The notes beneath the pieces were generated by a model, which made no database searches, had not been told where the DNA came from, and saw nothing but the letters and a program-made list of their open reading frames with translations. This document shows positions 68 to 54,030 of a DNA stretch of 64,000 bases, one piece after another. Numbering within the stretch: position 1 is the first letter of the stretch; every line of letters begins with the position of its first letter. Position numbers and translations under genes: made by a program. The DNA is from Lactarius indigo (taxonomy: Eukaryota > Basidiomycota > Agaricomycetes > Russulales > Russulaceae), in the NCBI GenBank assembly GCA_025766275.1, contig JAFKAC010000146.1, forward strand, positions 51,775-115,774. The letters are read 5' to 3'.

Positions 68-645
68 TGTTACGCCCTAGCAGGGGCGTGGGTTCTGAAG
101 GTTTCTAATCACACAAGTATCAAGCGAAGACCTCTGTTGTCTTATTGCTATGAAATACAAGTGGCGAAAATGTGGCACAAGGTGCAGCACTACTCTGTAA
201 GGTAGGACTCCTCGTCCGAAGTGTCTGACACTTCTCTACACTTGATCTTGCTAGTGCACAGAGTATAACAGGTGTGACGCGTTGATATAGTTCAACTGCA
301 AAGACTTCGAAGTGTCCTGGTTAGGGACTGAGATAGGGGATGCACAAGAAGAGGAGAATAAGGCGAGGTCACACCAAAGTACGGAGGCGAGGTTGCTAGA
401 TTGCAAACGAAGCCAAGTCTGGCTTCCTACGGTCTATGGTACAGGTTTATATAGGACAGGGTTCCAAACAACATGAACACAAGTCCACACAATATCAAAG
501 AGACTAAACGGAGTAAACAGGAGTTCGGATCAAAGAAACAGCGCCACTAGTAACAGTAGCTCCTTTGGTAACAAGGTATGGTACAGAAGGGGAAGGCAGG
601 GTGGGGACATACTGTGGTTTAAGTCCGAAGCGTCGGATCATAACA
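68..645 (-). repeat. LTR family A, 3' LTR of Gypsy-A
   Basis: This 578-bp LTR has TGTTA/TAACA ends and matches 8068-8645 except at position 213. On the plus strand it reads TGTTACGCCC...GGATCATAACA. A purine tract (650-659, read on the minus strand as AGAGAGGGG) lies against its inner edge and is the likely plus-strand primer. Confidence 0.95.
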
Positions 646-649
646 TGAG

Positions 650-659
650 CCCCTCTCTA
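650..659 (-). promoter_or_regulatory. Polypurine tract of Gypsy-A
   Basis: On the minus strand this reads AGAGAGGGG four bases before the 3' LTR. A purine run at this place primes plus-strand DNA synthesis in LTR retrotransposons. Confidence 0.7.
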
Positions 660-671
660 AGTCAACTCTCC

Positions 672-2546
672 CTAGAGTGCTTCGAAGTCCATCAGGTCAT
701 AGACATCGTTGTCTACGTCGTTGGAGGGGGTGCTTTCGCGAGGGAGGGGGCAGCGATGTTGGCGAAGGAAGTTGAAGGGACCATGGGCCCCACACTTGCG
801 ACAATTTTCATACTTGGGGCACTTGATTTCTTCGTGGCTGTTGCTGGTAAAACACTTGCCACACCACTGAGTGCGTTCTTCTGGGGCTGGCCAGAGGCAC
901 TGATAGGGGAAGTGGTCAGTGCTAGAACACCTCCAGCAGAACTTCTGTTTTTGAGGGCAGGCGAAGGAGAGGTGGTCTTCAGACTGGCACCTGTAACAAA
1001 GTCGAATGGTGCCAGTCTCCTTCTTGTTGGCTCTGCGCTTGCGTCTCTTCTTCCTTTCTGCAGAGGGGCTAGGTCCTTCTGGTTCGTCGTGGAGTCGTGG
1101 CATGGAGTGGTGGCGAGGTGGAGCAGGGGCAGAAATGGGGTGGACTTCAAAGGGGTGAGTTTCTTCTTCCGGAGGAGGGGGGTGTAGTGTGAGCCATCGG
1201 TCTGCAATCCGGACATAGGCCTTGTGTTCTTGCAGCCTTCTTCGGGTGCTAGTTAGCTGCATGTCCATGTTGAGGAGGTGCCTTTTGAGGGGCTCCATTG
1301 TCTTGTACAGGCCTTCAATCTCCTTTCGGAGGGCCTTCTGGTTTCGCAAGAGTCGGCGAGTCCTGGAGATTTCTGCTGTGAGGCGGTCATCTTTCAGGTC
1401 TTCTAGGACTTCGTCGACTTGTCTGGCTGTGGGGGAAGCTTCATCCAAGTTCTGCATCTGAGCTGGGGTGATGGGGGGAGCTGGGTTGTGGGGATCGTCG
1501 TTTCTGGGAAGGAGGAAAAGGGGGAGGCCATAGTGAGGGAGGTTTTTGCCCATGGTGCCGATGACATCTTCTTTGTTTTCACTGATCTTGATCCACTTGG
1601 CATCCTTTCGGATGTACGAGGTTGGATCAGCGTTGTCAGGGATGAGGAAGTGGACATAGCGGCTGCTCCAGGGGTCATTCAAGAAGAAGGGGTAGCCAGG
1701 GTCGTCGTCTTCTTCAGCAGTGATGTGCATTCTTTCATAGTTAATGGGGAGTGCGTCCATGATTGGGTCGTTGATTATTTCGCTGAGCCGAGCCATGGTC
1801 ACTCTAGGATCAGGGGGGGAGGTGGTAGGTCGGTATATCTCAGGAGTAGGGGGAGCTGTGTGTCCAGGAGGGGGAACACGAAGGGCTATTCCTCCTCCTT
1901 CTGTTTCTATGACGCTGGGCATGGTGGGATCGATGGGTTGTGGTTCCTGGATGAGTGAAGGCAAGGAAGGGGGTCGTGCTGGGAAGGGAGAATAGCCAGA
2001 GGAGGGTGTGACAGAGGGTGTTTCGTCAAAGGAGCCTCTTTCCATGGCACGAGCAACAAGACGTTCTACAGAGGAGGAGCGAGAGGGCATGGTGAGGAAG
2101 CTAGTGGGGAAGGTGGTTACTGTTCGTACTGTTACTTCCTTTCGTTTTAACCATTGCTTTGCTCCTTCGCTTCTGGGGTTGCTTTCAAAGTGTTCCTGAA
2201 TAAGTTCTGGGGCGTTGAGGTTCTTTTCTGGTTCCCAACTGTTGTGTGCATCGGAGTATCCCTTCCACTTGATTAGGAACTGTAACTGGTTCCTGTGGCG
2301 TCTTGTTTCTAGTATTTTCTCGACTTCCCACTCCTGTTCTCCATCTACTAGATCTGGGGGTGGTTCCGTAAAGTTCTTTCCATGTATGGAGGTTTCTTTG
2401 TATGGCATCAGGAGTGACGCATGGAATACTGGGTGGATCCGCCACTGATGGGGAAGTTTCAGGGCATATGTGGTGGCGGAGATCTTCTTTGTGACCCTGA
2501 AGGGTCCATATCTTTTTGGGGCTAACTTGAAACTAGGGTGCGTTGT
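672..2546 (-). CDS. Gypsy-A pol 3' part: integrase GPY/F, chromodomain, long C-terminal extension with zinc knuckles
   Basis: This is the continuation of the pol frame that the LTR-B at 2547-3172 interrupts; without the LTR and one GTTGT the frame runs NLKTT-HPSFKLAPKRYGPF. Residues are counted from 2561, so the first few come from the LTR. The order is GPY/F module (about 12-60), chromodomain (about 78-130, WEVEKILE...FLIKWKGY...SWEP), then about 490 residues that ordinary chromovirus integrases lack. The extension has a Pro/Ser linker (150-255), a globular segment with DDPGYPFF (about 287-294) and VIGTMGKNLPHYG (about 333-345), a coiled coil (380-455), a basic KKRRKRR patch (about 504-510), two canonical CX2CX4HX4C knuckles (522-535, 542-555), two variant Cys/His units (567-581, 587-604) and an acidic tail ending in YDLMDFEAL. 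Fusion to Pol is seen directly. The role is unknown; nucleic-acid binding is inferred from the knuckles. Confidence 0.88.
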   Translation of the reverse strand, partial: TTHPSFKLAPKRYGPFRVTKKISATTYALKLPHQWRIHPVFHASLLMPYKETSIHGKNFTEPPPDLVDGEQEWEVEKILETRRHRNQLQFLIKWKGYSDAHNSWEPEKNLNAPELIQEHFESNPRSEGAKQWLKRKEVTVRTVTTFPTSFLTMPSRSSSVERLVARAMERGSFDETPSVTPSSGYSPFPARPPSLPSLIQEPQPIDPTMPSVIETEGGGIALRVPPPGHTAPPTPEIYRPTTSPPDPRVTMARLSEIINDPIMDALPINYERMHITAEEDDDPGYPFFLNDPWSSRYVHFLIPDNADPTSYIRKDAKWIKISENKEDVIGTMGKNLPHYGLPLFLLPRNDDPHNPAPPITPAQMQNLDEASPTARQVDEVLEDLKDDRLTAEISRTRRLLRNQKALRKEIEGLYKTMEPLKRHLLNMDMQLTSTRRRLQEHKAYVRIADRWLTLHPPPPEEETHPFEVHPISAPAPPRHHSMPRLHDEPEGPSPSAERKKRRKRRANKKETGTIRLCYRCQSEDHLSFACPQKQKFCWRCSSTDHFPYQCLWPAPEERTQWCGKCFTSNSHEEIKCPKYENCRKCGAHGPFNFLRQHRCPLPRESTPSNDVDNDVYDLMDFEAL

Positions 2547-3172
2547 TGATGAACAGCACACATAGATAGCTTACTCACAGAGGGACAAAGTGTTCTGTGG
2601 TGAGACAAGCTGGGTGGCTGGAAGCAGCAACAGGGGAAGTCTAGCAAGGTAAAGCAAAGTGTCTGGCACACAAGCAGTGAGAACTGATATTGTTACATTG
2701 AAGAGAAGGGAGCTTACCTGGCACACAAGCAGTGAGAACTGATGTGGACCAGGGGCGTACATGGTACTCTACTTATACACTTTCTGGTAGTGACACTGTA
2801 CAAGGGATGTAACACTAAGTCACGCAGTACAAGGAAGTATTGTTCTACAAACGGACAAAGGAGTGGACGTTCTGAGAACAAGGAAAGAAAGAATAAGGAG
2901 AGTCCAGAAGCAAATGATATCATAGTGACATCATAATAAAGATAAAGCTAAGTATGGAACAAAGGAAGGTACAAAGGCGTTATACAACGCAGAGTCCGGA
3001 TGTATGATGTCATTAGAAGTACAGTGATGTCATAAATGACGCAATGGTAAGTCCAGATTGTACAGATCAATCAGTATCTAATCTACAAGTCCTGTATATC
3101 TAATCTAAAGCAGTCCATGCTGCAAGTCCGGTCCGTACGAGCCGCTAAGTGCGCAAGGGTCACTTATCAACA
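2547..3172 (+). repeat. Solo LTR-B (Copia LTR) inside Gypsy-A pol
   Basis: This 626-bp element runs from TGATGAACAG to TTATCAACA and is flanked by GTTGT (2542-2546 and 3173-3177). It matches the LTRs of the Copia element at 56879-63090. It carries the duplicated form of the presumed transcript start (segments ending near 2685 and 2742). It interrupts the integrase coding frame between the DDE core and the GPY/F module. Confidence 0.95.
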
Positions 3173-5922
3173 GTTGTTTTCAAGTTCCTGGCATCCAGCC
3201 ACACACTATCTCCTTCTGTGTGTTGTTCGAAGCGAGAGGATCCTTTGTAGAGTGACTGTGCATGGGTAATTGCTGCTTGGGCGGTCCTTCTGGCTTCCTG
3301 GATTCGCTCCAATCTTTCTTGTGTTCCTGGTACTGTGGTTGTTCTTTCTGGTTGGTGTACTCTTGGGATGTATCCAAGGATTAATTCGTAGGGTGTCTTT
3401 TTAGTGGTTGCGCTTGGCCAGGAGTTGTGGGTGTACTGTGCCAGTGGTAGTAGCTCCGTCCAATTGTCTTGTTGATGGTTTATGAACATTCGGAGGTACT
3501 GTTCTAACCACTGGTTTGTTCGCTCTGATTGTCCATCTGTTTGTGGGTGGTATGCTGTGCTGATGTTTTGTTCTATGTCAAGCACTCTGCACAGTTCTTT
3601 GATGAACTTCGCTGTGAATCTGGGGTCTCTGTCGGAGATGACCCTTCTTGGTAGTCCATAGTGTGGCAGGACAGTTTTGGCATAGAGTTTTGCCACTCCT
3701 TCTGCGTCTATTGTTTCGCTGCATGGGATAAAGAAGGCTGCTTTGGAACAGTCATGATCCGTGATGGTGAGAATTGTGTCATTGTCTTCTGATTGGGGTA
3801 GCTTTGTGATAAAGTCTAGAGCGATGGTTTCAAAAGGGAGTGCTTCTGGGTTAGTCTTGATGGGGAATATCGGCGGTTTCGGGTTCCCAGGGAAGTTCTT
3901 GTTTGATTGGCATGTGGCACAGCCCTTTACATATGCGGATATGTCGTCTTTCATGTTTGGCCACCAATAGTCTTGTGACACTAGCCACAAGGTCTTTGTT
4001 ATTCCGGGGTGTCCAGCTGTTTTTGTATCGTGAAACAGGGAAATTACCCCCCTCTTTAGCGGTGTGTTGTCCACAACCACCAGTTTGTCACCTCTCCACC
4101 AGTGTTTGCCTTGTTTTACTAAGTGGAAGGGGGCGGCCCACTCGTCCAGAGTGTCTTGGTGGTCTATTTGGTGTGCCATGACCCGGTCATCTATCCTTAT
4201 GGAGAGAGCGGAGTTTACGAAGATGGTTGGGGTCAGGACCACTACATCAGTGTTATCCCCTGCTCCGGTGTCGTGGTCAGGGCGTCTTGACAGGGCATCA
4301 GCATGGTTTTGGGGTCCGGGCTTGTGGTGAAGTTTGATGTGATAGTCTGCAAGTCTGGGGATGTATCGCGCCACTCTCCTATTGATTTGTCGAGGGTGGC
4401 GGTAATACTCTAGGTTTTTGTGGTCTGTAAACACTGTGATTTCGTGGGGGGATCCTAAAAGAAGGTGTCTCCAGTGTTCCAGTCCTCTGATTACTGCCAG
4501 GAGTTCCCTGTCATGGATGTCATAGTTGTGCTCCGCTTCAGAAAATGATTTGGAGAAGTATCCCACAGCTTGTGGTTTGTTTCGGCTGTCTCTTTGTGTT
4601 AAGATTGCCCCTGTGGCGAAAGCGGAGGCATCTACTTCTAGTTCGAAAGGTTTGTCCATATCTGGTTGGCATAAGATGGGGTCTTTGCACACAAGCGTGA
4701 TGAGAGCTTCTAAGGCTTCTGCTGCTTCCTTTGTCCATCTGAAGGGTCCTTCTGACGTCTTTATTGTGTCCGTGATGGGTCTTGCTAAGTGAGCGAAGTT
4801 GGGGATGAAGGGTCGCTGATAACTTAGTGTTCCCAACACGCTTCTTGCTTGTTTGACTGACTTGATGTCTCTTGGCCAGTCTTTTAGTCCTTCTACCTTC
4901 TTTGGGTCGATTTTGATTTGAGACCCATCGATGACAATGCCTAGGTAGTGGATCTTTCTTTGTTCGAACACACATTTCGACGCTTTAAGGAAATAAGATT
5001 CCTTTTCACAGATTTCCAGGAATTCGTGTACAATTTGTCTGTGGCGTTCTGTATCTTCTTCTGTGGCTATCAGGACATCGTCCATGTACACAAATAGCTC
5101 TCTTGGGTATTTGTCCATAAGTGGTCGAAGTATTCTGCTCATGGTCCTTGCAAAGGTAGCTGGTGCATTTGTGAGGCCGAAGGTCATGACTCGAGGGATG
5201 AACAGCCCCCTTGGTGTCTTGAAGGCTGCCTTCCATTGGTCTTCCTCTTTTATGCGGATATTATGGTATCCCCATCTGATATCGAACTTTGAGAACAGTG
5301 TTTTCCCATTTAAGTTGGTCAGGATGTCGGAGATGAGAGGTAGTGGGTAAGTGTCTTTTATTGTCCAGGTGTTTAGGGGTCTGTAGTCCAGGATAGGGCG
5401 CAACCCTCCGTCTGTTTTCTTTCTGAAGAAGAAGGAGGAAGCGTAGGGGGAGCTTCCTTCATAGATGTATCCTTTTGCTATGTTTTCGTCGAGATATGCC
5501 TTCAGCTCCTTGTCTTCTTCTGGAGTCAAGGGGTAGATTTTGCAGTTGATCTTGTTGGGTGCATCTGGTCGCAATGTGATGGGATGGTCTTCTTCTCTTT
5601 CTGGGGGAAAGCGCTGTGCTTCTTCGTCTGAGAATACTTTGTTGTGGCGCTGGTATTCTTCTGGGATTGCGGTTTCTTTTACTGGGTCAAAGGTTGTTTT
5701 GGTTGCTGCCGCTTTCGCTTCTTGGTGTCGCTTTCTTCGGAAGCGGTACCCTCCTGTCAGGATGGTGATGGCTTCTCCTTTCAGCTCTTGTTTCTTCCAG
5801 TCTATGTCTGGGTTTTCGTGTTCGAACCAGGGGTATCCAAAGATCATTCTGTCTTCTCCTAGGCTCGTTACGAAAAACTGGAAAGGAGTTTCTTCTTCTC
5901 CTCTTTTATCCATAGCTGGCAT
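3173..5922 (-). CDS. pol: Gypsy-A pol: reverse transcriptase, RNase H and integrase core
   Basis: The open frame encodes the central enzymes that copy element RNA to DNA and insert it in the genome. Counting from 5922, the end of the protease domain (FGYPWF, about 28) is followed by RT with FDIRWGYHN (about 213) and the catalytic YMDD (279-282), RNase H with VDASAFATGA (about 429) and HADALSRR (about 540), the integrase HHCC zinc domain (about 632-672, GHPGI...CATC), and the DDE core with D703, D764/D766 and E800 (HPQTDGQSE). Length and order match Ty3/Gypsy chromoviruses. The frame continues at 2546 beyond the solo LTR-B. Relative to the protease frame it is shifted by minus 1 near 5900, either by a base lost in an A-run or by a second frameshift event. 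Confidence 0.95.
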
Positions 5923-6185
5923 GTTTCTGTCATGGTGCCATCTTTGTTTAGCGATCCATCCACATTCCGGACCAATCTGGGTGGTTTCAGAGGAGTGGTT
6001 CCTAGTCCAAGTTTTTGGATTAGGTTTCGGTCGATTAGGTTGTCTGTTGCACCACTGTCTAGCAGCACATTTATGCGAGCTTCTTTGTAGTAAAGGCGAA
6101 CGAGGACTTTGATTGTCATAGCACTATCGCGAACACTATACATTGAATTGGCCTCCCTGTCAGCTCTCACAGGTCGGCATCGCAA
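5868..6185 (-). CDS. Gypsy-A aspartic protease segment
   Basis: The retropepsin signature LLDSGATDNLI (about residues 41-51) marks the protease that cuts the Gag-Pol polyprotein. It lies in the minus-1 frame relative to gag, which it overlaps by 19 bases, so it is probably made by ribosomal frameshifting at the GGATTTT at 6185-6191. Its frame ends at 5868, while the homologous continuation (GEEETPFQFFV...) lies in the next frame and overlaps from 5922. A one-base loss in the A-run near 5905 would explain this. Confidence 0.8.
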   Translation of the reverse strand: MRCRPVRADREANSMYSVRDSAMTIKVLVRLYYKEARINVLLDSGATDNLIDRNLIQKLGLGTTPLKPPRLVRNVDGSLNKDGTMTETCQLWIKEEKKKLLSSFS

Positions 6186-7858
6186 AAATCCTGATCTAAG
6201 GCATAGTAGCGTCTCTTTTCGTCCTCTGTCATGCCTTGGACGAGTGCATGGGCTTGTCGGACTTTATCTTCGGTTGTGGTAGCAGCTACTGATGAGGTGC
6301 TTGCTTCTGGGGTGTATGGGGGTGCAGTGTCCGCTTCTTGGGTGTCTGTGGCTCTGGCTTTGGTTTGGTTGGTGGTGTTTTGTCGTTGACAGTTCCTAGC
6401 CATGTGTCCTTGCTGTCTGCATTTGAAGCAGCGTCCTTCTTTCATGAGGGCTTTCTTTTCTTCTTCGGTAAGCTTCTTAAAGGGGGTGGAGGTGGTGGCA
6501 TCTACATCCATTGCATTTGGGTCTCGCTTTGGTCGTCCTTGATGGACATTTTGAGTTGGCCCTGGGTTTCTGTTCCCTGGTCTGGCTTTTAGCAGCTTCC
6601 AGCATTGGTGTTCTGCTCTGGCAGCGGTTTGCCACTCGTCCATGGTGTTTGGGATGGTGGTTCTCATAAGGCAGGCACGATACAGTCCTGTGGGTAGTCC
6701 TCTTTTGAAGAATTCCACCGTTCCAGGGGCATCTCTTGCCCATCCTGCTATTCCTGCAAGGTGTTCGAAGTCGAGAATGTAACTGTCCAATGCTCCACCC
6801 TGCATCGTCAAACTGATGAGCTTCTGATAGGCTCTTTCTTTGTTTAGAGTGTCGGTCCAGTCTCTGTCGAAGGTGTCGAGGAAACCGTCCCAAAGGTCTT
6901 TGCTGTTTTTGGTGAGGGCTTTGGTGGGGTCTGCTAGTGCCGCTTCCATGTCATCTTCAGTTTGGTTGACCCATAGCTGTACACCGGGTCCTTTGAACAT
7001 TGTAAGGGCGAATAGTACTCGTGCATAAGGTTCTTTGATGAGTTCATTTTCACTGTTTAACTTGATGTATCGTAGTAGTTCTCTTTTGAACTGACCACTC
7101 TCTGTTCTATCTCCGGTGAACGGAGTAGGGGGTGCTCCTTTGAGTCCTCCTGAGCTCGTTGTTGGTGTTCCTCCTGTTCCGGTGCTTGAGCCGGTACCTG
7201 TGCCAGTGCCTGTGGCGTTTACAGCTGACATGATAAATGTTGGCTGTGGTGTGATGGGGATCTGGGGTGGTTCGACTGGGGAGGGCAATCTGATTGGTGG
7301 TAGTGTGGCTGGGAATCCTTCTTCTGCTGGGGATGGTTCTATCCAGATAGGGATAGTGGGGCTGGCTTGTGACGAAGCTTGTGTGGGTACTGTGATGTCT
7401 AGGCGGTGTTCTGAGGAGTGAGATAGTTCTGAGTGTGATTCTGCTTCGTCTGAGCTGGGTTCTTCCGATGATGAGTCTTGTTGTAGTCCGTATGTTCCCC
7501 TAGTGTTTCTTGGTGCTGAGGATGATTGTTGTGTGGGTGTTTCTGGGTTCTGTTCGTCTTCTTCGTTCCACCAGCCTAGTCCTTCAGCAAATCTGTGTGG
7601 TGTGATGTTTATGGCTCTGGTGTGGTATGTGTTCTGAAAGTATCTGAGGATGTACCAGTTGTTGTTGATAAATTCCACTGGTCTGAGTTCGCCTTTGATG
7701 AGGCACTTGTAACAAGGTGGTCTGCCTGATGTTGTGGCCCAACGAGCTCCTCTTCCTAGTTGACTGCTTTTAACGTGGTGTGGGAGGTCGTCTTGTGTTC
7801 TGGTTGTGACTGGGGTCCAATCGTTGTCTGATTCAAAGGTGACACTGATGCTAGCCAC
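6167..7858 (-). CDS. gag: Gypsy-A Gag polyprotein
   Basis: This 563-codon frame encodes the particle-forming protein. Visible parts are an N-terminal domain (1-100), an acidic Ser-rich stretch (100-200), a Gly/Thr repeat (about 215-240), a capsid-like helical region (about 250-420), the DPNAMDVDA box, and one CCHC knuckle (CFKCRQQGHMARNC, about 469-482). The frame opens at GTG (7858, GTGGCT) and its first in-frame ATG is codon 210 (7231), just before the capsid region; the same arrangement occurs in families C and D. Either GTG is used, or the protein starts at codon 210, or both. Gag ends at a TGA overlapping the protease frame. Confidence 0.9.
   Translation of the reverse strand: MASISVTFESDNDWTPVTTRTQDDLPHHVKSSQLGRGARWATTSGRPPCYKCLIKGELRPVEFINNNWYILRYFQNTYHTRAINITPHRFAEGLGWWNEEDEQNPETPTQQSSSAPRNTRGTYGLQQDSSSEEPSSDEAESHSELSHSSEHRLDITVPTQASSQASPTIPIWIEPSPAEEGFPATLPPIRLPSPVEPPQIPITPQPTFIMSAVNATGTGTGTGSSTGTGGTPTTSSGGLKGAPPTPFTGDRTESGQFKRELLRYIKLNSENELIKEPYARVLFALTMFKGPGVQLWVNQTEDDMEAALADPTKALTKNSKDLWDGFLDTFDRDWTDTLNKERAYQKLISLTMQGGALDSYILDFEHLAGIAGWARDAPGTVEFFKRGLPTGLYRACLMRTTIPNTMDEWQTAARAEHQCWKLLKARPGNRNPGPTQNVHQGRPKRDPNAMDVDATTSTPFKKLTEEEKKALMKEGRCFKCRQQGHMARNCQRQNTTNQTKARATDTQEADTAPPYTPEASTSSVAATTTEDKVRQAHALVQGMTEDEKRRYYALDQDFCDADL
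6185..6191 (-). promoter_or_regulatory. Candidate minus-1 frameshift site GGATTTT (gag to protease, Gypsy-A)
   Basis: In the gag frame the minus strand reads CAG GAT TTT TGC, giving the heptamer G-GAT-TTT 15 bases before the gag stop codon. It resembles the G-GAU-UUA site of betaretroviruses. The protease frame is minus 1 to gag and has no in-frame start codon at the overlap. Confidence 0.55.
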
Positions 7859-8067
7859 GATTGTGGTCTGTCTTGGGTGCTGATTTGTGTAAGGGGATGG
7901 CTGAAGCGGCCTCTTGTGTCAGGGAGGATCCGTCGCCCGGCTATGCCGTCGTTTCTGGGTTCTTTTGGAGTGTCTGGTTGTTGGCTGATGCATCCTCTTG
8001 GATCGTCGCCCACTCTGCTGTGTGGCAGTAGTGTCTTAGGTGTGTTGGGAGTTGTAGACTTGGCTTA
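7859..8067 (-). other. Gypsy-A 5' leader
   Basis: About 209 bases lie between the 5' LTR and the first gag codon. The part nearest the LTR is the self-priming site. A short minus-strand frame (8013-7756) overlaps it but has no family match and lacks an ATG, so I do not call it a gene. Confidence 0.6.
8056..8066 (-). promoter_or_regulatory. Self-priming primer-binding site of Gypsy-A
   Basis: On the minus strand this is AAGCCAAGTCT, one base inside the 5' LTR. It is the exact reverse complement of AGACTTGGCTT in the LTR (8410-8420), which begins 33 bases after the TATATAAAC box (8445-8453). No tRNA 3'-end match (TGG...) is present at the LTR edge. Tf1/sushi elements prime reverse transcription by folding the transcript's first 11 nt onto such a site. 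Confidence 0.85.
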
Positions 8068-8645
8068 TGTTACGCCCTAGCAGGGGCGTGGGTTCTGAAG
8101 GTTTCTAATCACACAAGTATCAAGCGAAGACCTCTGTTGTCTTATTGCTATGAAATACAAGTGGCGAAAATGTGGCACAAGGTGCAGCACTACTCTGTAA
8201 GGTAGGACTCCTTGTCCGAAGTGTCTGACACTTCTCTACACTTGATCTTGCTAGTGCACAGAGTATAACAGGTGTGACGCGTTGATATAGTTCAACTGCA
8301 AAGACTTCGAAGTGTCCTGGTTAGGGACTGAGATAGGGGATGCACAAGAAGAGGAGAATAAGGCGAGGTCACACCAAAGTACGGAGGCGAGGTTGCTAGA
8401 TTGCAAACGAAGCCAAGTCTGGCTTCCTACGGTCTATGGTACAGGTTTATATAGGACAGGGTTCCAAACAACATGAACACAAGTCCACACAATATCAAAG
8501 AGACTAAACGGAGTAAACAGGAGTTCGGATCAAAGAAACAGCGCCACTAGTAACAGTAGCTCCTTTGGTAACAAGGTATGGTACAGAAGGGGAAGGCAGG
8601 GTGGGGACATACTGTGGTTTAAGTCCGAAGCGTCGGATCATAACA
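8068..8645 (-). repeat. LTR family A, 5' LTR of Gypsy-A
   Basis: This 578-bp LTR is the promoter-bearing copy for the minus-strand element. The TATA box is at 8445-8453 (minus strand TATATAAAC), and the presumed transcript start AGACTTGGCTT is at 8420-8410, inside a short hairpin (GAAGCCA...TGGCTTC). Confidence 0.93.
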
Positions 8646-8991
8646 CCCGTCCAAATGAAAGCCAACGGGCAGTGGAATCGCGCTGTGCTGCAAGACGTCC
8701 TCTATGTACCCGAACTCCACGGAAACCTCCTATCAGTTCCGCAACTTGCTCGGCGTGGCGCAGACGTTCGCTTCACAGAAGGGGGTTGTCAAATTTACGA
8801 CCAACATGGCATACTCACCTGTGAGGGCACCCTCCGCAGGAACCTGTACATCATGTCAATCCGCATCATATCCCCCGAAAGCGCCCGCGTTGCAGTGGCC
8901 CAAGTCGACACATTCCCCATTGACGGTGAGGAACTTGCCCCATGTGCAGAAGCCGCCCTAGTTGCGCGCAGTGCAACATCAAAAGCTGATG
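8646..8991 (+). pseudogene. Copia-1 polyprotein fragment b
   Basis: This continues the 1-67 frame after the CCCGT duplication: QMKANGQWNRAVLQDVLYVP followed by LLSVPQLA, the conserved stretch between protease and the GAG-pre-integrase domain in Copia elements. It ends at TGATG (8987-8991), the target duplication of solo LTR-J, and continues at 9770. Confidence 0.88.
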
Positions 8992-17189: not shown

Positions 17190-17786
17190 CAGTGAAATTG
17201 ATTGATTGATTGATTATAGATTGGTGTTAGATTGTGTCTTTGTCTCTTACCAGTGAAACATTTGCTTTGTGGAGTTGGGGGGTTTATATTGTTAAGTAAG
17301 GTGAAAAGGTGTGATGTGATGTTGACAGCCTTTATAACTTGCGAGGCAGGTAGTAATATTATAGTCTGTATTTTGTCATGGAATCATATCTGTGAGATGT
17401 GCATAAGGAGGCTTCCATTATCTGTGACCCATCTGTAATATACCAATGGCAAGCACAATGTGCTGCTCTGTATGCTGGAGAGCGAGCAGCGCGAGCAATC
17501 CATGCTATACAGAGCAGCACATTGTGCTTGCCATTGGTATATTACAGATGGGTCACAGATAATGGAAGCCTCCTTATGCACATCTCACAGATATGATTCC
17601 ATGACAAAATACAGACTATAATATTACTACCTGCCTCGCAAGTTATAAAGGCTGTCAACATCACATCACACCTTTTCACCTTACTTAACAATATAAACCC
17701 CCCAACTCCACAAAGCAAATGTTTCACTGGTAAGAGACAAAGACACAATCTAACACCAATCTATAATCAATCAATCAATTTCACTG
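17190..17786. repeat. Near-perfect palindrome, arms 284 and 280 bp
   Basis: The left arm 17190-17473 and right arm 17507-17786 are reverse complements, apart from one GATT unit more on the left; the spacer is 33 bp (17474-17506). The same short peptide frames appear on both strands as a consequence. It may be a fold-back transposon, a recent inverted duplication, or a long-read hairpin artefact. Confidence 0.93.
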
Positions 17787-21075: not shown

Positions 21076-21296
21076 CCAACAAAGGAATCAGCAGAGAAAA
21101 GCATCAGAAAGCCAAGAATCCCCTAGCAGAGGGAATACTCCAGCAGAAGACACAAGTCTAGGTGCCATTGAAGAGCACATCATTCAATAAACTGAGTCCC
21201 TTACCATCCATCAACCCTAACTGGAAGTAATTCACATATGATCCCCAGCAGTTGCAATGGCCACAACTACTATTACTCAAGAAGAAGAACGACTAG

Positions 21297-21806
21297 TGTT
21301 ATGGTACAGACTTGATGACTCATTACACACGACTCACGACCGGTTATGACTACGGTCCGGTATCAACATTAGTCATGGACTCTTACATCGTATCAGTCAG
21401 CATAGTAGTTCGCATGTGATTGTGACTCATGTATGACTCATTCCTAGGATAGCTGTACTAGGGTTCGAGCAAGTTACGCTATTGGTTACTTACTATTCCA
21501 GCGGCGCTTTAAAGCCCGCATGTATCTGTATAAGTAGTCGTGACGGAAGACCAAGAGTCCCCATCTTGGTCTTCTTCAATCCACCATCTTGACTCGTCTT
21601 TTGCTTGCCTTAGTCTTTGACTAAGTGTGCTTCCGCTTCTACCCACCAAGGGGTAGTACCTCTATATACTTGAGTTGCAGCGTGTGCCGGTGGGCCCCTG
21701 TTCAACTTGCGTTGGGTTGACACGTGATCCCCATTCGCCTAACTTTCGCTAAGTCGATTACGCCGTCTTCACGTCCAAGTCGGACTAACGCTGGTGGAGC
21801 GTAACA
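21297..21806 (+). repeat. 5' LTR of Gypsy-C
   Basis: This LTR runs TGTTATGGTAC...GGAGCGTAACA. The TATA-like GTATAAGTAG is at 21528-21537 and the presumed transcript start ATCTTGGTCTT at 21563-21573, paired with an upstream AAGACCAAGA in a hairpin. The predicted leader contains no ATG. Confidence 0.93.
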
Positions 21807-21808
21807 TT

Positions 21809-21819
21809 AAGACCAAGAT
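21809..21819 (+). promoter_or_regulatory. Self-priming primer-binding site of Gypsy-C
   Basis: AAGACCAAGAT lies two bases inside the LTR and is the exact reverse complement of 21563-21573. Confidence 0.87.
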
Positions 21820-21826
21820 TCCCATT

Positions 21827-23797
21827 GTGGCGTACTCGACCAGAGACCAGTGGACGTCCTTCCGTCCCTATCATATTATACGACGAGGAGACCGCAACGT
21901 ACCAACAAGATTCTTGGAAGCTGCTCAGTGGAGAGAAAGAGGAGAAGACACCGGATATTTCGTGGAGTTTAACGGTCCTAACCGTTTCCGACCCGTTGAG
22001 TTCAATTTCAAACACCTCTGTTGGGTCGAGATTACTTGGAACCCCATAGACCATCGCTGGGATATTGTACGCCCAGCAGGAAGAAACTACAACTGCGATA
22101 TCGACGCACGAGAACTTAACAGCCGCGCTGACTACGGTCCCATCGACGGACAAGCGCAGGAATATACCGATAAAGGTGTTAGCGGAGGAGAGGAATCTGA
22201 AGGTCAATCACCAAGTAGAGGAACAACGCCAGCAGAGGAAGCTAGCTTAGGAGCTATTGGCGATCATATCATACAACAAACTGAGTCCCTTACCATTCAC
22301 CAGCCCGAACCAGAAGTAATTCACATCCACAGTCCAGCAGTCGCAATGGCAACAACCACCGTTACGCAAGAAGAACTGCAGCTCACCCTTGAAGCAAGGG
22401 ATCAAATAGCCCTAGAAGAACAAAGACGCATCGCAGAAGAATCCAGAGCTAATCTAGCTCCCATCAACCCTCATACCGGTCATCGAATGACCGACGATGA
22501 CATAGCAATCCACCGTGCCATTGGACCAGATGTGGCTGACCCTCCTAGTGGTGGAGGTGGACCTCCTGGTGACTTACCAGGAGGAGGACCTCCATCAAGA
22601 GGACCCGGATTTGGAGGATTCCCTGGAGGACTCCCTGGAGGATTCCCGGGAGGACCACCAGGAGGAGGACATCCAGGAGGAGGACTACCAGGTGCAGGTC
22701 CCATTGCTCCCCCTCCCAGTAATAAGCTAGCTGGCAAAGCACCCACAGTATTTGACGGAGAACGCACCAAGGTCGAAGCATTCCTCACTCAATGGCACGT
22801 CTATTGGAGCATGAACGCCGACGAAGGCATCATGGCAACACCATATCGACGGGCCCTACTCTTCCTTTCTTATATCAAAGGCGTCAACATTAGCGAATGG
22901 GTATTAGCCATGCTCACCTGGCTCAATGGCCAGATACAGGCAGGAATACCCCGTACAAGTGAAGGACTATGGAACGAAGTCACGCGCAGCTTTATGCAGC
23001 GCTTCCGGAATACCATGGAACAAGAACAAGCTCAATACGAGCTTAAGAAAGGAGTCAGAATGATCGGGAGCAACCTAGATGAGTATTGCACCCAATTCGA
23101 ACAGTTAATACGCCGCGCTCAGTATAGACTTGACGACCCACAAACGCTTGACCTATTCGCGAGTGGATTACCAAAGGACCAATATGAAAAGGTCTACACT
23201 CTCGACAACCCTCGCAATTACTGTGAATGGAAAGAAGCGGCTACAACCCGTCAACAACAATACCTCCACCTCAAAGCAGTATTGAATAGAGGAGTTCCTC
23301 AAGGGCAGGGACAAGGACGACCACGACAACAACGACAGTGGCAGGGGCCACCAAGAAGTTCCTGGCAACCAAGAAACCTACCCCGAGATCCAAACGCCAT
23401 GGATACCTCAGCAGATCGAATCCGAGGACGACTTGCAGGAGCGGAAGATGTACTCGCCCCTTGTCCCCCATATTGACCAAGAGGAGGATTCATCCAAAGG
23501 GGAGGAGGACGTAATAACCAAAGGCCAGTCACCTGTTATAATTGTGGAAAGGACGGACACATGGCCCGTGACTGTAGACAACCAAAAGGAAGCTATCAGC
23601 CTCAAGCATCAACTAGTCGCTACATTGATACCGACTATCATCAACAAGAACCAGAGACTGCTACTAGGGCGGTTCAAGACGCACCCCCTCAACAGCACGC
23701 CAGTGACTGGCTCAACGGAGTAGCAGGAGAATCGGACGATGTAAAGGACATTATCCTCCAACAATTGTGGAAGAAGGAGGGTTTTCAGGACGCCTGA
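21827..23797 (+). pseudogene. gag: Gypsy-C Gag polyprotein with one in-frame stop
   Basis: The frame opens at GTGGCG (21827); the first in-frame ATG is at 22346 (MATTTVTQ). Parts in order are the N-terminal domain (TRDQWTSF, RRGDRNVPTRF, WNPIDHRWDI), an acidic linker, a helical Glu-rich segment, a Gly/Pro tract, the capsid-like region (KAPTVFDGERTKVEAFLTQW), the DPNAMDTS box, and one CCHC knuckle (CYNCGKDGHMARDC, about 23537-23578). A TGA at 23474 precedes the knuckle, in the pattern expected from CGA decay, because the same frame continues with clear homology. Gag ends at TGA 23795-23797 just after the GGGTTTT site. It should form the particle and bind element RNA. Confidence 0.9.
23779..23785 (+). 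promoter_or_regulatory. Minus-1 ribosomal frameshift site GGGTTTT (Gypsy-C)
   Basis: In the gag frame the codons read GAG GGT TTT CAG, so the heptamer is G-GGT-TTT in the exact X-XXY-YYZ phase. It lies nine bases before the gag TGA, and pol continues in the minus-1 frame with no start codon near the overlap. The same heptamer occupies the same place in element E2 (44445-44451). Confidence 0.85.
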
Positions 23798-26700
23798 ACC
23801 CATCGGCCTGGGTGAGGGCAGTTAAATGTAACAGTGTAATCATGACTCGCTATCGTTCTATGAGAGTTCCAGTATCGATTCGCACCAGTTACGCAATGGC
23901 CAACATACAAGCACTAGTCGACTCCGGGGCAACCCACTGCTTCATAAAGCCTTCCTTCGCAAAAAGGATGGGGCTTGGGACAAAACTACTCGACGTCCCA
24001 AAGAAAATATGGAATATTGACAATACCGAGAATAAATCGGGACGTATCACTCATTACACTGATGTTGATGTTCAAACTAAAGGAATCCATAAAGAAATAA
24101 GTTTCCTTGTCACGGACATCGGAAATGAAGACATCGTATTAGGATACCCCTGGCTTGCCATCTACGACCCGCATATCAAATGGTCGCAAGCTGCCATTCA
24201 TGAAGATATGCTCCCCATCATCATTCGTTCCACCAACCCTTACCTCAAAACAACGTCAATAGTCGCAACAACTACTGTCCAAGACGACGAATACGAAGTA
24301 GTACACTCCTGTGTTATTACCGACGAACAGCGACAACAATTTGAAGAAGGGTGTCGAATCAGGGCAACGGCCACTGACCTCGCCATCACCGCTCAGCAAT
24401 ATGTAACCAAAGCTGAGTTACCACCCAAATATCGCGAATTTGAACGCCTCTTCAGCGAAGAAGCATCGGACAGGTTTCCGCCAAGCAGGCCTTGGGATCA
24501 CGCCATCGAATTTAAACCAGGAACAGCCAACGCAATCGATTGCAAAATATACCCCATGACTCAAGAAGAAGACAAGAAGCTGCGCGAGTGGATCAATGAA
24601 CAACTCAAGAAGGGGTATATACGACCTTCTAAATCCCCATACGCTTCGTCCTTCTTTTTCATTAAAAAGAAAGATGGAAAATTACGACCCGTTCAAGACT
24701 ATCGGAAAATTAATGCAGTTACCATTCGCAATCAGTATCCACTCCCTCTCATCTCCGATCTCATCACGGACCTCAGTAACACTCACATCTACACCAAACT
24801 CGACGTTAGATGGGGGTACAACAACATACGCATCAAAGAAGGAGACGAAGAGAAGGCGGCGTTCAAGACGCGCTACGGGTTGTTTGAACCGACGGTGATG
24901 TTTTTCGGCCTTACCAACTCTCCGGCAACGTTCCAGACCATGATGAATTTCATATTCAGGGACATCATAGCTAAACATGAAGCCCATGGAACGGTAATCC
25001 GGGTTTACATGGACGACATTGGTATCGCAATGGGACTTAACCACTCCCTTCAAGACCACATTGAAGCAGTCAAAGACGTTCTCCGCGTATCCACAGAACA
25101 CGACCTGTATTACAAGCTTGAAAAATGCCTCTTCCACTCCCCACGTATGGATTACCTGGGGGTAATCCTTGAAAAGGGGGTGACACGCATGGACCCTGTC
25201 AAAATTTCAGGCATTAAAGATTGGCCTACGCCAACCAAGGTTAAGGACGTCCGCTCGTTTCTCAGTTTTTGCAATTTTTACCGTCCTTTCATACGAGGTT
25301 TCGCAACCAAGGCACGACCCCTCAACAAACTTACCTGCAAGGACACCAAATGGCACTGGGGAACCGAAGAAGAAAGGGCATTCCAAGACCTTAAAACCCT
25401 TGTCACTAGCGAACCTGTCCTTGCACACCCAAACCTCACTCAACAATTTGAGTTAGAAGTCGATGCATCAGGTTTTGCAACAGGAGCAGTCCTCCTTCAG
25501 CGCAAAGCAGATGGTAAACGACACCCTATCGGTTACTACTCATCCACCCTCAACGAAGCCGAACGAAATTACAACATTTACAATCTTGAACTCCTAGCAA
25601 TTGTCAAAGCTTTCCGCCACTGGAGACCCCTCTTAGCGGGCTCTCCCCACAAGATCAAAGTATTCTCCAACCATCTCAACCTACAATACTGGAAATCGCC
25701 ACAGAAGATTAGTAGACGCGTAGCCAGGGAAGTACTTGAACTCTCCTAATATGACTTCGAGATTCATCACATTAAAGGAACTTCCAATGGGCATGCAGAC
25801 GCACTGTCGCGAAGGCCGGATTACGATCAAGGAGAAAATGACAACGAAGGGATAACAGTATTACCGGAAAGCGTCTTTGCACGCGCCACCACGCTAGAAG
25901 AACCACGACATCCACATTGGAGACCTGAGATCTTACTGGTGGAAATGACTCCAGAACACCCCATATACGAGCAAGACATAGCTAAGTTGAAACCTTGGGT
26001 TGATGCTCATAAGCTAAAAGACATCGAAGGAACATGGTACAAAGACGGACGCCAAGTGGTTACGGGCGGCATCCACAACAAACGCACTATCATTGCCACT
26101 CACCATGATTCCCCTGTATACAGCCACCCCGGTATCAAACGTACTCTCCAATTCACCGAGCGACACTACTGGTGGCCGCAGATGAAGAACGACGTTATGG
26201 ATTACGTCAAGGGCTGTGCAGAATGCCAGCGACATAAAGTCAACCTCCGTCCCATCAGAGCACCCCTACAACCCATTTACCCGAAACCGGAAGCCCTGCC
26301 ATTTGAGACCATTGCAGTGGACTTTATTACTAAACTCCCCATCTCTCGCGGCTACGACTCTATTCTAACGGTAACAGATCATGATTGTACCAAAGCCGCC
26401 ATTTTCCTCCCTTGCAATGAAGAAATAATGGCCGAAGGAACGGCTGCCCTGTACGTGTCCCATGTCTTCCCACGATTCAGACTCCCCTCGCGTGTTATCA
26501 GTGATCGAGACCCCCGTTTCGCATCCAAGTTCATGCGAGAGATATGCAAGATTCTTGGCATTAGCCAAAATATCTCAACCGCTTATCATCCCAGAACCGA
26601 TGGCCAATTGGAACGAACAAATCAATGGCTCGAACAATATCTCCGCTTCTGGGTGAACGAACGACAAGACGACTGGGTTCGCTATCTGCCTATGGCAGAA

Positions 26701-27594
26701 TTCACGCATAACAATTGGCCCAACGAGACTACACGGGAGTCCCCTTTTTTCCTCTTATCAGAATTCAATCCCCACGCTGATTGGACCGATAGGCCTTCCC
26801 CTATCCCACAGGTGTCCCTGAGACTAGACCAGTTCAAACAGGCGCGACAGCGTGCCTTCTCCTGTATGCTCAGGGCGCAAAAGTCATGGGTCAAACACAA
26901 AGATATGCCCAAGTTCAAAGAAGGAGATCTCGTGTGGCTCAAGGGACGCCACTTGCAAATGCACCAACCAACCGCAAAACTAGCCGCTAAACGGCACGGA
27001 CCATTTAAAGTCATCCAGGTGATGTCCCCTGTCAACTATCGCCTCGAGCTTCCCACGCAGTGGAGCATCCACGATGTCTTTCACATAGATCTTCTCACAC
27101 CTTATCGCGAGACACCCACGCATGGACCAAACTATCAGCGCCCACCACCGGATTTGGTTGATAACGAGGAAGAATACGAAGTTGAGAAGATTCTAGACTC
27201 TCGGCGATTCGGCAGAAGACGACGGCTCCAATACCTTGTGAAATGGAAGGGGTATCCTGACTCAGACAACCAGTGGATAGATAAGGATGACGTATTCGCC
27301 GACGAAGCCATACGGGAATTCAAACATTCCAACCCCGACCGAGAAACGCATATAAGAATGACCTCCTGTCACGATAAGTCCCCATCAATCCTTCACTCCA
27401 TGTCCTCTACTCGACAAAATGACCAGCTCGCACTCCTCTCTACCCTCGTCAACAACTCCTCCGCCACGCTTGTTAACCCCGACTCCACCAATGACACCGC
27501 AACCATTGGAACTGCGGATGGAGACCATACCTCCATGCAGCATGAGGAAGGCGGCCCTATCACTAGTGAAGAACTGTACCAGACATTGCAATGA
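23786..27594 (+). pseudogene. pol: Gypsy-C pol: protease, RT, RNase H, integrase, chromodomain
   Basis: The frame carries the retropepsin (LVDSGATHCF), RT (LDVRWGYNN, catalytic VYMDDIGIA), RNase H (VDASGFATGAV, HADALSRR), integrase HHCC (HPGIK...CAECQ), DDE core (AVDFITKLP, VISDRDPRF, HPRTDGQLE), GPY/F (KRHGPFKV) and a chromodomain (YEVEKILDSRR...YLVKWKGYPDSDNQW). A single TAA at 25747-25749 (where E2 has Glu) splits RNase H from integrase; otherwise the frame is open to TGA 27592-27594. That TGA is followed in the same frame by the C-terminal extension, so it probably replaces an Arg codon. Confidence 0.92.
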
Positions 27595-28572
27595 TTCCCT
27601 GTGCCCGTACAGGGAACTCTCGACGACGATCCAACAGCAACTCAGCCAGCACCTCCACCAATGTACGCCCTCACAAACCCCAATACCGGTGAGCCCAAAG
27701 CCTTCCTCACAGAAGACGAGCTTTTTCGGCTTCAAGCAGCTGTCCCGCGCGGTGAAACCACCCAATGCCATGAAGAAGTATGAACAAGAATGGAAGGAGA
27801 CAGTGGCATGGTGGCAGCAGGAGCAACTGCATATCGCCGCCTGCCGACGCTGAATGATGAAGGAGCGGAAAGAGTACTGGACGAAGATGAGGATGAAGAC
27901 GAGCTTAGAGACCATTACCCCATCAGGCACGCATTCCTTAACCATGAATTCTACGCTGAAGATCCAGCCACCACTCCCTACCTCATCGACGCAGCGGGGG
28001 GGCCTTTACACCGAGGACGAGTCGCCGTGGCACAAGTGGCTCATTATACACCAATGGGCGAACGAGACCCCGCAACCAGGCTCATCGTCCCTGAGGGGTT
28101 CCGGGTCAATAGAGGACCCGATTACATTCCGTTCCCGATCAAGCTCCCCAATGGACCGACGATACAAGCATCCCACGTACAGGTTATCTGAGGAGGAGAC
28201 CCCTTCGTACTCGGACTAGCTCCGGGGTTGGGTTTCCTCTATGGCAAACCCCTTTACGCCACCCCCCATCTCCCGAAGAACAACCGCGCATTCATACCGC
28301 ACGAGGAGTACTTCATGCTCCGCGACCGACACCCCACCGACCTACTACTAATGCGTATCGGGGACGTCACTCTCATTCAGGAACTACGCCAGTTCCGGCA
28401 ATTCACGTTTGCCGAGGACCAGCTAGACAGGCGGATTCGGCAGTTGCAGTTGGAGCGGGAGATGGTGGTCGCAGACAAAATGGACAGTCTCTATCATCTC
28501 AAAAGAGCTAACATATTGGCACGAATGGAAGATGAAGCAGAGTGGATGCAGCAGGAATCAGTAGCGGATTAG
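27595..28572 (+). pseudogene. Gypsy-C Pol C-terminal extension (no zinc knuckles)
   Basis: This frame is in phase with pol and broken only by TGA codons (27592, 27781, 28189), ending at TAG 28570. It has a Pro/Thr-rich linker, a very acidic DEDEDEDEL run, a segment with YIPFPIKLPNG and LYGKPLYATPHLPKNN that lines up with the DDPG...PHYG segment of Gypsy-A, and a C-terminal coiled coil (about 28400-28560). The zinc-knuckle array seen in families A and D is absent. Function unknown; the homology is by eye, moderate rather than strong. Confidence 0.7.
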
Positions 28573-28604
28573 TGAGGTGGGCCTCACTCCTGAAAAGGGG
28601 GTGG

Positions 28605-29114
28605 TGTTATGGTACGGACTTGATGACTCATTACACACGACTCACGACCAGTTATAACTATGGTCTGGTATCAACATTAGTCATGGACTCTTACATCGTA
28701 TCAGTCAGCATAGTAGTTCGCATGTGATTGTGACTCATGTATGACTCATTCCTAGGATAGCTGTACTAGGGTTCGAGCTAGTTACGCTATTGGTTACTTA
28801 CTATTCCAGCGGCGCTTTAAAGCCCACATGTATCTGTATAAGTAGTCGTGACGGAAGACCAAGAGTCCCCATCTTGGTCTTCTTCAATCCACCATCTTGA
28901 CTCGTCTTTTGCTTGCCTTAGTCTTTGACTAAGTGTGCTTCCGCTTCTACCCACCAAGGGGTAGTACCTCTATATACTTGAGTTGCAGCGTGTGCCGGTG
29001 GGCCCCTGTTCAACTTGCGTTGGGTTGACACATGATCCCCATTCGCCTAACTTTCGCTAAGTCGATTACGCCGTCTTCACGTCCAAGTCAGACTAACGCT
29101 GGTGGAGCATAACA
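28605..29114 (+). repeat. 3' LTR of Gypsy-C
   Basis: A 510-bp copy of the 5' LTR. Most differences are CG in the 5' copy against CA or TG here, including the terminal GAGCATAACA. Confidence 0.93.
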
Positions 29115-35288: not shown

Positions 35289-35600
35289 ATTCCTCGCCGC
35301 GTTTGGCCACCGTGGCCAAACGCGGTCGCAGTATTTGTGACCACGTTTGACCACGATGGTCAAACGCGGCGAGCAATATCGCGGCCGCGTTTGACCACCG
35401 TGGCCAAACGCGGCGAGGAATATCGCGGCCGCGTTTGACCACCGTGGCCAAACGTGGCGAGGAATATCGCGGCCGCGTTTGACCACCGTGGCCAAACGCG
35501 GCGAGGAATATCGTGACCGCGTTTGGCCACGATGGTCAAACGCGGTCGCAGTATTTGTGACCACGTTTGACCATCGTGGTCAAACGCGGCGAGGAATATC
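35289..35600. repeat. Tandem array of seven 44-bp units, each with a 27-bp palindrome
   Basis: Palindromes start at 35298, 35342, 35386, 35430, 35474, 35518 and 35562, exactly 44 bases apart. Each has arms CGCGTTTG(A/G)CCA and TGG(T/C)CAAACGCG (outer base variable) around a 3-base centre. Linkers are GCGAGGAATATCGCGGC or, after units 1 and 6, GTCGCAGTATTTGTGAC. The array is translated as repeats in several frames and has fused in frame with the end of the five-exon gene. The palindrome core matches P1-P4 at 16764-17078. Confidence 0.95.
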
Positions 35601-52484: not shown

Positions 52485-54030
52485 TTACCCCTCGCCTTGG
52501 CCTGAAGACGCCTCGACTTCAGCTCTCCGGGTTGACAAGGTCATAAATGTCAGCGTCAAGGTTGTTCTCCGGCCACGGAGAGATGTCTAGTCAACAGTGA
52601 TGGGTTTTTAAGGAAGAAAAGAGGTCCGCGAGTGCCACACTTGCAACACATCTTGTACTGAGGGCACCGAATTTCGTTGTGATTGGCGTTGGTAGTGAAA
52701 CACCGCCCGCACCATCTTCCTTGCATGTTGGCAACAATGGTCGGCAGGTTCGGTACAGTAAAGGAAGTGGTGGCCTCAGCAGATATCGATTGGCATATGC
52801 ACTCTTCTGCCTGATGAGTGGTGATGACCTCATGGACCATTTCTGCACAGCGAAATATGCAGCGATGGGATTGGTGCTCCTGGCTTTGGCAGTGTCGACA
52901 TGCTGGCCTGGGTCTGTTGGGACAGTCGCGCACTAAGTGATGAGGACTGTTACAGTGGTAACAGCATCGGTGACGAGGTTTGTCGGTGAGGTGGGGAACT
53001 CGAGTGGTCCTCTGCGTCAGGGGGCAAATGGGATGGCGTATCGTGAATGCCAGAGGGGAGCCAGGAGTGCCATCATACAAGCATACTCATCTGCTATTGT
53101 GCTAAGGGCTCCAGCGTACTGCAGGCGTCTTTTAGTACTGGCCAGCATCAGATCCACTGTCAGCTGCTCCGCTCGAAGTTTATGAGTGTCCTCCTCCAGT
53201 TTTTCGTACTTCTCGTCTAGCTCCTTTAGTGCCAGGAGTCCCGTGTGTAGCCTTGTGATCTCTGCCGTAATGCATGGGGAGTTAAGTTCGATGAGTGTCT
53301 CATCTAGGGCGCAGGCTTGGATGTCATGAGGGTCGAAGAACTGGAGTTGTTCTGCCGTGAAAGGGGGGGCCGAGACATTGGGTCTAAGAGTCGAGAGGTA
53401 GACCTCCTCTCCGTAGTGTGGTTGCCTAGCACCCATTGTCCCCACTACCTTGGTGAATCCTTTGCGATAGTAAATGTACTTTGCAGTGTTGGATCCACCA
53501 TCAGGTAGTGGGATCTGTAATGGGAAGTATTTTGGTGTTCCTGGGAGGTTTGGGAAGAAGGGTGCACCTGGGTCATCAGTGTCTTCAGGGGGAGAGTCAG
53601 GTCGGTTATAGTCGATGGGCGTGTGGACGTGGACCGGGGTGAAGGGTTCTAGGGGTGGTGGAGGGGTGGATGATGGGGATGATGGGGGTGATGGTACCTG
53701 TGGTTTGGGTGGCGGTGTGGGTTGTTGATGAGGAGGGGGTGTCGGTGAGTATTGTCCCTCCTCAGGTGTCGATGGAGTGAGCTCCCCCGGTTCTCGCTCT
53801 GGAGAACAAGGTACAATAGGGGCATTGGGGAATGGATGGTGGTGGTGACAGGTGCAGGATGTCGGAGAGGTCAATGGTAACAATCCCTCGTTCAAGGGCG
53901 GCTTTGAGTTGGGGATTGTTGAGGATGTTGACGAGGGTGGTGTCGGATACTGGGGTATCTGTCATTGTGTCGTTGCTGAGGGGGCTTGGTCAGAGGGTCT
54001 TTTTCTTATACCTTTCGCCCTACCCCTTCA
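52485..54030 (-). pseudogene. Gypsy-D copy F1: Pol C-terminal extension with zinc-knuckle array
   Basis: Leftwards from the chromodomain: a TGA after IPIH (in phase), a basic/Pro linker, LNEGLLPL, DDPGAPFFPNLP, KVVGTMGARQPHYG, ITAEITRLHTGLL and a coiled coil ending LASTKRRLQ, then two canonical knuckles (CYHCNSPHHLVRDC, CRHCQSQEHQSHRC), variants WCGRCFTTNANHNEIRC and CCKCGTRGP, and a tail ADIYDLVNPES. The segments match Gypsy-A's extension in the same order (DDPG-PFF, V-GTMG...PHYG, LTAEI, STRRRLQ, CCHC x2, WCGKCFTSNSHEEIKC, VYDLM). Frameshifts near 53020 and 52600 break it. Shared order across two families argues for one conserved module of unknown function. Confidence 0.82.

Follow-up and report, generated by a model that had tools for sequence, protein, structure and literature searches.

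A Ty3/Gypsy chromovirus, here termed element A, occupies positions 68-8645 of the window, i.e., of the 64,000-nucleotide stretch of Lactarius indigo contig JAFKAC010000146.1 (positions 51,775 to 115,774) that was analyzed. The element is read on the minus strand. Its 3' LTR (68-645) and 5' LTR (8068-8645) are 578 bp long, differ at one of the 578 sites and are flanked by the target site duplication (TSD) CCCGT at positions 63-67 and 8646-8650. The TG..CA ends of the LTRs and the 5-bp TSD are chromovirus traits. Gag is encoded by an open frame at 6167-7918 (-) with a single CCHC knuckle, so Gag already has a knuckle of its own as noted in a preliminary description of this DNA. The RT, RNase H, and integrase part of Pol is located at 3173-6123 (-) within an open frame (3160-6123) that reaches 13 bases into a 626-bp insert at 2547-3172. 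The insert resembles a solo LTR with TG..CA ends and the TSD GTTGT, and it splits the integrase from the SH3/chromodomain part of Pol. Parts of the insert are similar to stretches near 14.5, 43.5, and 57.1 kb. The protease part is found in another frame than the RT part, with the change near position 5,900. Pfam identified the order RT, RNase H, integrase, and C-terminal chromodomain for element A, in two pieces because the copy is interrupted. The element was previously described as very young and its extension as uninterrupted. The LTR identity bears out its youth and the frame at the end of Pol is indeed intact, but the copy is broken since Pol itself is cut by the insert and the frame change.

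The chromodomain part of Pol lies in an open frame at 672-2570 (-) that encodes 632 amino acids and ends with a stop codon at 672-674, 26 nucleotides upstream of the 3' LTR. About 500 residues follow the chromodomain in frame, close to the 490 first estimated. The frame starts with an SH3_Tf2-1 domain (residues 9-57; Pfam) and the chromodomain (residues 81-127, positions 2190-2330; Pfam Chromo E 8.3e-16). The remaining region, a linker and a C-terminal module, spans 672-2150 (-). A conserved, Met-led module start common to the relatives described below, MPSRSSSVER, was located at 2061-2090. Then follow a predicted beta core (1506-1706; DDPGYPFF ... GTMG ... LPLFLLP, with DDPGYPFF at 1683-1706 and IGTMGK at 1545-1562), a long predicted helix that may form a coiled coil (1194-1424), a basic patch (ERKKRRKRRANKK, 1020-1058), four zinc units and an acidic tail (DNDVYDLMDFEAL, 675-713), all on the minus strand. 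Zinc units 1 (957-998) and 2 (897-938) both have the spacing CX2CX4HX4C, while units 3 (819-863, CX2CX5HX4C) and 4 (750-803, CX2CX11HXC) are variants. The linker, the DDPGYPFF...GTMG segment, the basic patch, the two canonical and two variant units and the acidic tail listed in the preliminary description could thus all be placed.

No Pfam model reached its cut-off on the module; a named domain covering it, which the preliminary description had listed as evidence against its proposal, was not found. The only Pfam matches were sub-threshold zinc knuckles, with zf-CCHC (PF00098) scoring 19.7 bits against a gathering cut-off of 20.8, and zinc units 1 and 2 fit the PF00098 pattern CX2CX4HX4C. In profile searches the zinc part of the module resembled the HIV-1 nucleocapsid (E 1.4e-4) and the Lin28 knuckles (E 8.5e-4), while matches to GCN4-type coils were weak (best E 0.28). 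The knuckle of Gag and the zinc units of the module are not closely alike (blastp E 0.09). AlphaFold models were of low confidence, with a mean pLDDT of 45 for the whole module and 54 for the beta-helix part. A search of the PDB for similar folds yielded 49 matches with E values of 10 or less, of which none fell below 0.001; Tudor (E 1.6) and chromobarrel (E 4.7) folds were among the top, non-significant matches and are a lead only. The helix was predicted with a pLDDT of 56-76, depending on the block. Among 20,000 shuffles the heptad bias was reached 150 times for the window copy, 890 times for the protein relative P0001 and 484 times for P0010, compared to 3,142 times for family C and 11,394 times for family D (see below), where the signal is weak. 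The coiled coil proposed earlier is therefore a possible one, at best moderately supported by the predicted long helix and the heptad bias.

The window copy belongs to a family of elements (family A) with at least 89 copies of 96-100% identity in the genome, the window copy included. This number is a lower bound because 89 of 949 candidates were scored. At 21 of 30 family A loci that were cut out we found open frames of 1,623-1,640 amino acids, of which two contain a single in-frame TGA within the match. These frames are long enough to cover both the insert point and the point of the frame change, and at locus L002 integrase through module is a single frame. A protein search, of a kind that favors close relatives of the module, identified 14 relatives at E ≤0.01 with 40-48% identity (family P), five of which (P0001 to P0005) aligned over 96-99% of the query. 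In three relatives (P0006, P0012, and P0013) the same protein has a precomputed Chromo domain annotation, and P0010 starts within the chromodomain as judged by eye. A profile search returned 13 proteins, with P0015 and P0016 being additional to the first search. The module start MPSRSSSVER was present with one to a few changes in P0001, P0004, P0006, P0010, P0012, P0013, and P0016. All four zinc patterns were intact in the 43 distinct family A copies compared, in P0001 and in the family C copy L066; by eye, the zinc ligands, including those of the variant units 3 and 4, are also kept in the remaining rows of the P and C alignment that reach the zinc end. P0015, a 226-amino acid fragment, departs from the zinc ligands, and its first zinc units are not intact. 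Those P relatives that extend far enough have a lysine-rich patch, which family C lacks. The acidic tail has [IV]YDL in common with families P and C, and the alignment has the module parts in the same order in families A, P, and C. A 977-amino acid query from integrase to module gave no module match at E 0.01 among 7,994 candidates scored. In viral and prokaryote contigs 14 and 60 stretches, respectively, fitted a pattern, none of which was confirmed as the module.

A second, diverged family of elements in the same genome (family C) carries the module as a separate, out-of-frame gene, ORF3. The genome search for this family was made with positions 53020-53961 of the window, 126 of 1,400 candidates were scored, and six copies were analyzed. 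In both copies that include the end of Pol (L066 and L067) Pol stops shortly past the chromodomain, and the ORF3 ATG lies 41 nucleotides past this normal Pol stop. ORF3 has 482 codons and its ATG, with an A at -3 in L066 and L067, is found near the position of the module start MPSRSSSVER. The module frame was open over the examined stretch in all six copies, of which L069 has no start. ORF3 consists of an N-terminal part, a Pro-rich linker, the beta core, the helix, the four zinc units and the YDL tail. Compared with family A, some 38 additional residues are inserted between its second and third zinc units. The Pol and ORF3 frames overlap for about 100 nucleotides before the ORF3 ATG (L066, 1139-1283; L067, 1060-1201), with ORF3 in the -1 frame. 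A -1 slippery site was considered for this overlap and rejected, the heptamer considered being out of the canonical codon phase. No AG is common to L066 and L067 in the 41 nucleotides between Pol stop and ATG; L066 alone has one, and the nearest common AG is at -42. The window itself holds a degenerate family C module copy at 52559-53961 (-; profile E 1.2e-97 and 3.9e-33) and, in pieces, a further decayed relative at 47644-48419 (-; best pieces E 1.4e-11 and 6.9e-11).

The preliminary description had considered the region to be an extension of Pol. This holds for family A, where the module is an in-frame C-terminal fusion to Pol, but not for family C, and since ORF3 is separate in the latter, "third element protein" is a more fitting description of the unit. 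Homologues in which the region is a separate cellular gene captured once had been named as evidence against the proposal; the separate form found here belongs to a related element and not to the host.

A third Gypsy family (family D) is represented in the window by the element at 21296-28903 (+) and has at least 150 related loci in the genome, 150 of 1,336 candidates having been scored. Many family D matches lie in frames of about 1,610-1,620 amino acids. The C-terminal tail of the window copy (27328-28569, +) is spread over several frames and has, by resemblance, a beta-like part and a helix. The pattern test found no zinc units in the family D tail. An hhalign comparison of profile A2 with profile A3 covered 114 columns with E 1.3e-4 and a probability of 54%, and its score of 40.7 exceeded both the maximum of 100 column shuffles (30.4) and the reversed profile (20.4). 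The fused tail of family D is therefore likely to be homologous to the beta core and helix of the module. Given this lack of zinc units in family D, zinc-based nucleic acid binding is not common to all families.

We used 43 distinct family A modules from 60 loci (L001-L060), after identical, short or gapped matches had been dropped, to assess selection. By simple pairwise counts that ignore the tree, pN/pS for the module was 0.134 (95% interval 0.098-0.179; pS 0.078). This is in line with the selection suggested at the outset and not near 1, the value named there as speaking against it. Forty of the 43 copies had no stop codon in the module and three had one each. For ORF3 of family C, pN/pS was 0.083 (0.063-0.105; pS 0.37) in the five of six copies that are of equal length. 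The other two sense frames, used as controls, gave 1.456 (+1) and 1.415 (+2) in family A, and 2.16 and 2.60 in family C. A selected alternative frame in family A was rejected from these sense values together with antisense frames 0 and 2 (1.026 and 2.456), while the 0.200 of antisense frame 1 is read as a mirror of third codon positions and not as a gene. In the same 38 family A copies the module had a pN/pS of 0.128 (0.091-0.174) compared to 0.083 (0.055-0.114) for the final 400 codons of integrase and chromodomain. Thirteen copies with 500 upstream codons gave 0.116 for module and upstream region alike, and a set of 16 copies (module 0.096, upstream 0.092) agrees with the larger sets. At biallelic sites in family A the ratio of nonsynonymous to synonymous changes was 73:102 among singletons and 21:31 among doubletons, compared to 13:45 for changes in three to five copies and 8:26 for those in more than five; one stop change was found among the singletons and one among the doubletons. 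The lower ratio at the commoner sites implies tighter constraint on changes that copies share than on private ones. Altogether, these values point to strong selection on the module.

The constraint was unevenly distributed along the 477-codon stretch compared. The first 40 codons had a pN/pS of 0.10, the linkers 0.24-0.29 and the helix 0.15-0.18. The tightest blocks were codons 161-200 in the beta core (0.020) and codons 361-400 (0.009), which cover zinc unit 1 and the larger part of unit 2, followed by a block at 0.089. By another cut of the family A module, zinc units 1-2 gave 0.015, units 3-4 gave 0.162 and the tail 0.089. The 30-codon junction before the module was the least constrained (0.389; 41 copies). 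This map would fit two functional units on a loose linker, and cleavage by the element protease would be compatible with it as well. In family D the whole tail had a pN/pS of 0.30 (two copies). Over its last 262 amino acids in four copies, excluding the broken copy in the window, five of the six pairs had a pS of 0.25-0.34 and a pN of 0.04-0.05; no difference was seen between L062 and L063.

Nucleic acid binding is the natural guess for a protein of this composition, and the helix, the basic patch (families A and P) and the four zinc units would most simply be read as a nucleic acid-binding oligomer. We consider it reasonably probable that the module is a third protein of a Ty3/Gypsy chromovirus lineage that binds nucleic acid, oligomerizes, and works with integrase and RT. 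Fusion to Pol would set a low, Pol-like dose and ensure co-packaging with RT and integrase; in family C, re-initiation past the Pol stop would likewise keep the dose of ORF3 low. Inside the particle the module would be freed or stay on its flexible linker, and would self-associate via the long helix. The four zinc units would bind element RNA or cDNA, and the beta core and acidic tail would dock a partner. The module would then aid reverse transcription and the pre-integration complex much like a second nucleocapsid. The lack of a confident fold, the missing basic patch in family C and the missing zinc units in family D weigh against this helper reading, as do the zf-CCHC score below the Pfam cut-off, the looser constraint on zinc units 3-4 than on units 1-2 in family A, the altered ligands of P0015 and the weak heptad signal in families C and D. 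A more specific version, to which we give less than even weight, is an undescribed third chromovirus gene, kept under selection similar to that on integrase and encoding a modular, Pol-dosed nucleic acid chaperone that would act in the pre-integration complex or in target choice. It would occur as a fusion or on its own, and the whole zinc array would come and go as one block.

Other explanations must be weighed against this third-protein reading. The module might serve integration targeting: the beta core or acidic tail would recognize a partner on chromatin, the zinc array would grip target DNA, and integrase would be directed to particular sites. In favor of this are its location past the chromodomain (families A, P, and D), an [IV]YDL tail with the conservation of a docking peptide, and Tudor and chromobarrel among the non-significant fold matches. 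The family C module is, however, not in the integrase frame and the junction to the chromodomain part is weakly constrained (0.39), and we regard a targeting role as unlikely. That the module was captured once from another gene, such as a LINE ORF1 or a host zinc-knuckle protein, and then switched between the fused and separate form seems less probable again. LINE ORF1 proteins combine a helix with a CCHC array, a resemblance by analogy that would suit such an origin, as would the distance between the Gag knuckle and the zinc units of the module. Yet all returned proteins represent this module and none is recognizably a LINE or host gene (most being unnamed, from searches that favor close relatives), and the profile matches in the PDB were knuckles and weak coils only. 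A separate regulatory or export product, which would bind unspliced genomic RNA in the nucleus for export, in the manner of CERV of Cer1, or activate LTR transcription by its acidic tail, appears slightly more doubtful still. The separate ORF in family C, the combination of helix, Cys-rich part and acidic tail, and a basic patch in families A and P that could serve as a nuclear signal are consistent with such a product, but the fusion to Pol in A and P would leave little free nuclear protein unless it was cleaved or spliced, and no AG is shared by L066 and L067 in the 41 nucleotides before the ORF3 ATG.

Two further explanations carry very little weight. The location between integrase and 3' LTR is that of an env-like or capsid-like structural protein, which is nevertheless very improbable, as neither a transmembrane segment nor a Pfam env or capsid match was found; the highest hydropathy over 19 residues was 0.81 in family A, 0.58 in family C (L066) and 0.75 in P0001, compared to a customary threshold of 1.6. 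An env-like protein was rejected on the lack of a membrane segment in this hydropathy analysis. The least probable explanation, of nearly negligible weight, is that the frame has no function and arose by chance read-through. Nothing beyond the unusual length speaks for it, and it is refuted by frame-specific pN/pS values of 0.134 and 0.083 in two families and zinc patterns that are kept in all 43 family A copies.

Chromoviruses are usually drawn as gag and pol, with pol ending at the chromodomain. Family A is like other fungal chromoviruses in having Gag and Pol, the order protease-RT-RNase H-integrase-chromodomain, LTRs and a 5-bp TSD, but differs by adding a conserved four-zinc module past the chromodomain. 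Clades of basidiomycete chromoviruses include MarY1, Laccy1, Laccy2, Tcn2, Puccy1, and Puccy2, and the main-text passages on fungal chromoviruses in the same source describe no zinc array past the chromodomain (PMC2864245). The accessible portions of general papers on fungal and oomycete elements describe no such module, and in a literature search mostly outside subscription journals no title or abstract opening names it. The module looks like a real, so far undescribed third gene. The ORF3s of bdelloid rotifer LTR retrotransposons are similar in being extra genes after pol that are family-specific, of several kinds and in many cases not env; the types named in the accessible text (env, esterase, exonuclease, transmembrane, and coiled-coil) include none like the module (PMC5408684). 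CERV of the Cer1 element serves RNA export in Caenorhabditis elegans (PMC10309623). Unlike the module it is spliced from gag-region exons to a 3' ORF and has globular M and G domains, and the accessible text mentions a possible C4 finger and no CCHC array (PMC10309623). TRP28 of Retand, one of the additional ORFs of plant LTR retrotransposons, is antisense, has another domain and belongs to a non-chromovirus, according to the part of the source available (PMC11963269). The HIV-1 nucleocapsid (PF00098) shares with the module two CX2CX4HX4C units preceded by basic residues, whereas the module is not in Gag, has four units of which two are variant-spaced, and adds a beta core, a long helix and an acidic tail.

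A conserved third protein, fused or free, would mean that part of the replication or targeting machinery of chromoviruses has been overlooked. The families offer a natural comparison of fused with free forms and of forms with and without zinc units, and thereby of what these elements need beyond the standard enzymes. Annotators may mistake such ORFs for host zinc-finger genes.

Element A also contains a putative self-priming site of 11 nucleotides at 8056-8066 (-). It starts one nucleotide after the 5' LTR and is the exact complement of LTR positions 226-236, which lie 33 nucleotides past a TATA motif (position 193). In Tf1-type self-priming a site just 3' of the 5' LTR, instead of a tRNA, pairs with the transcript start. 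A complement of at least 11 nucleotides starting at most 8 nucleotides from the LTR occurred in one of 2,000 shuffled LTRs, and 8056-8066 is a possible Tf1-like signal. Element A presumably sits in a Copia relic, to judge by eye from the frames and motifs there. Elsewhere in the window we observed an inverted repeat of 273 bp at 17201-17779, 100% complementary with a 33-bp spacer, and a tandem array at 35297-35604 with a 44-bp period and partly palindromic units.
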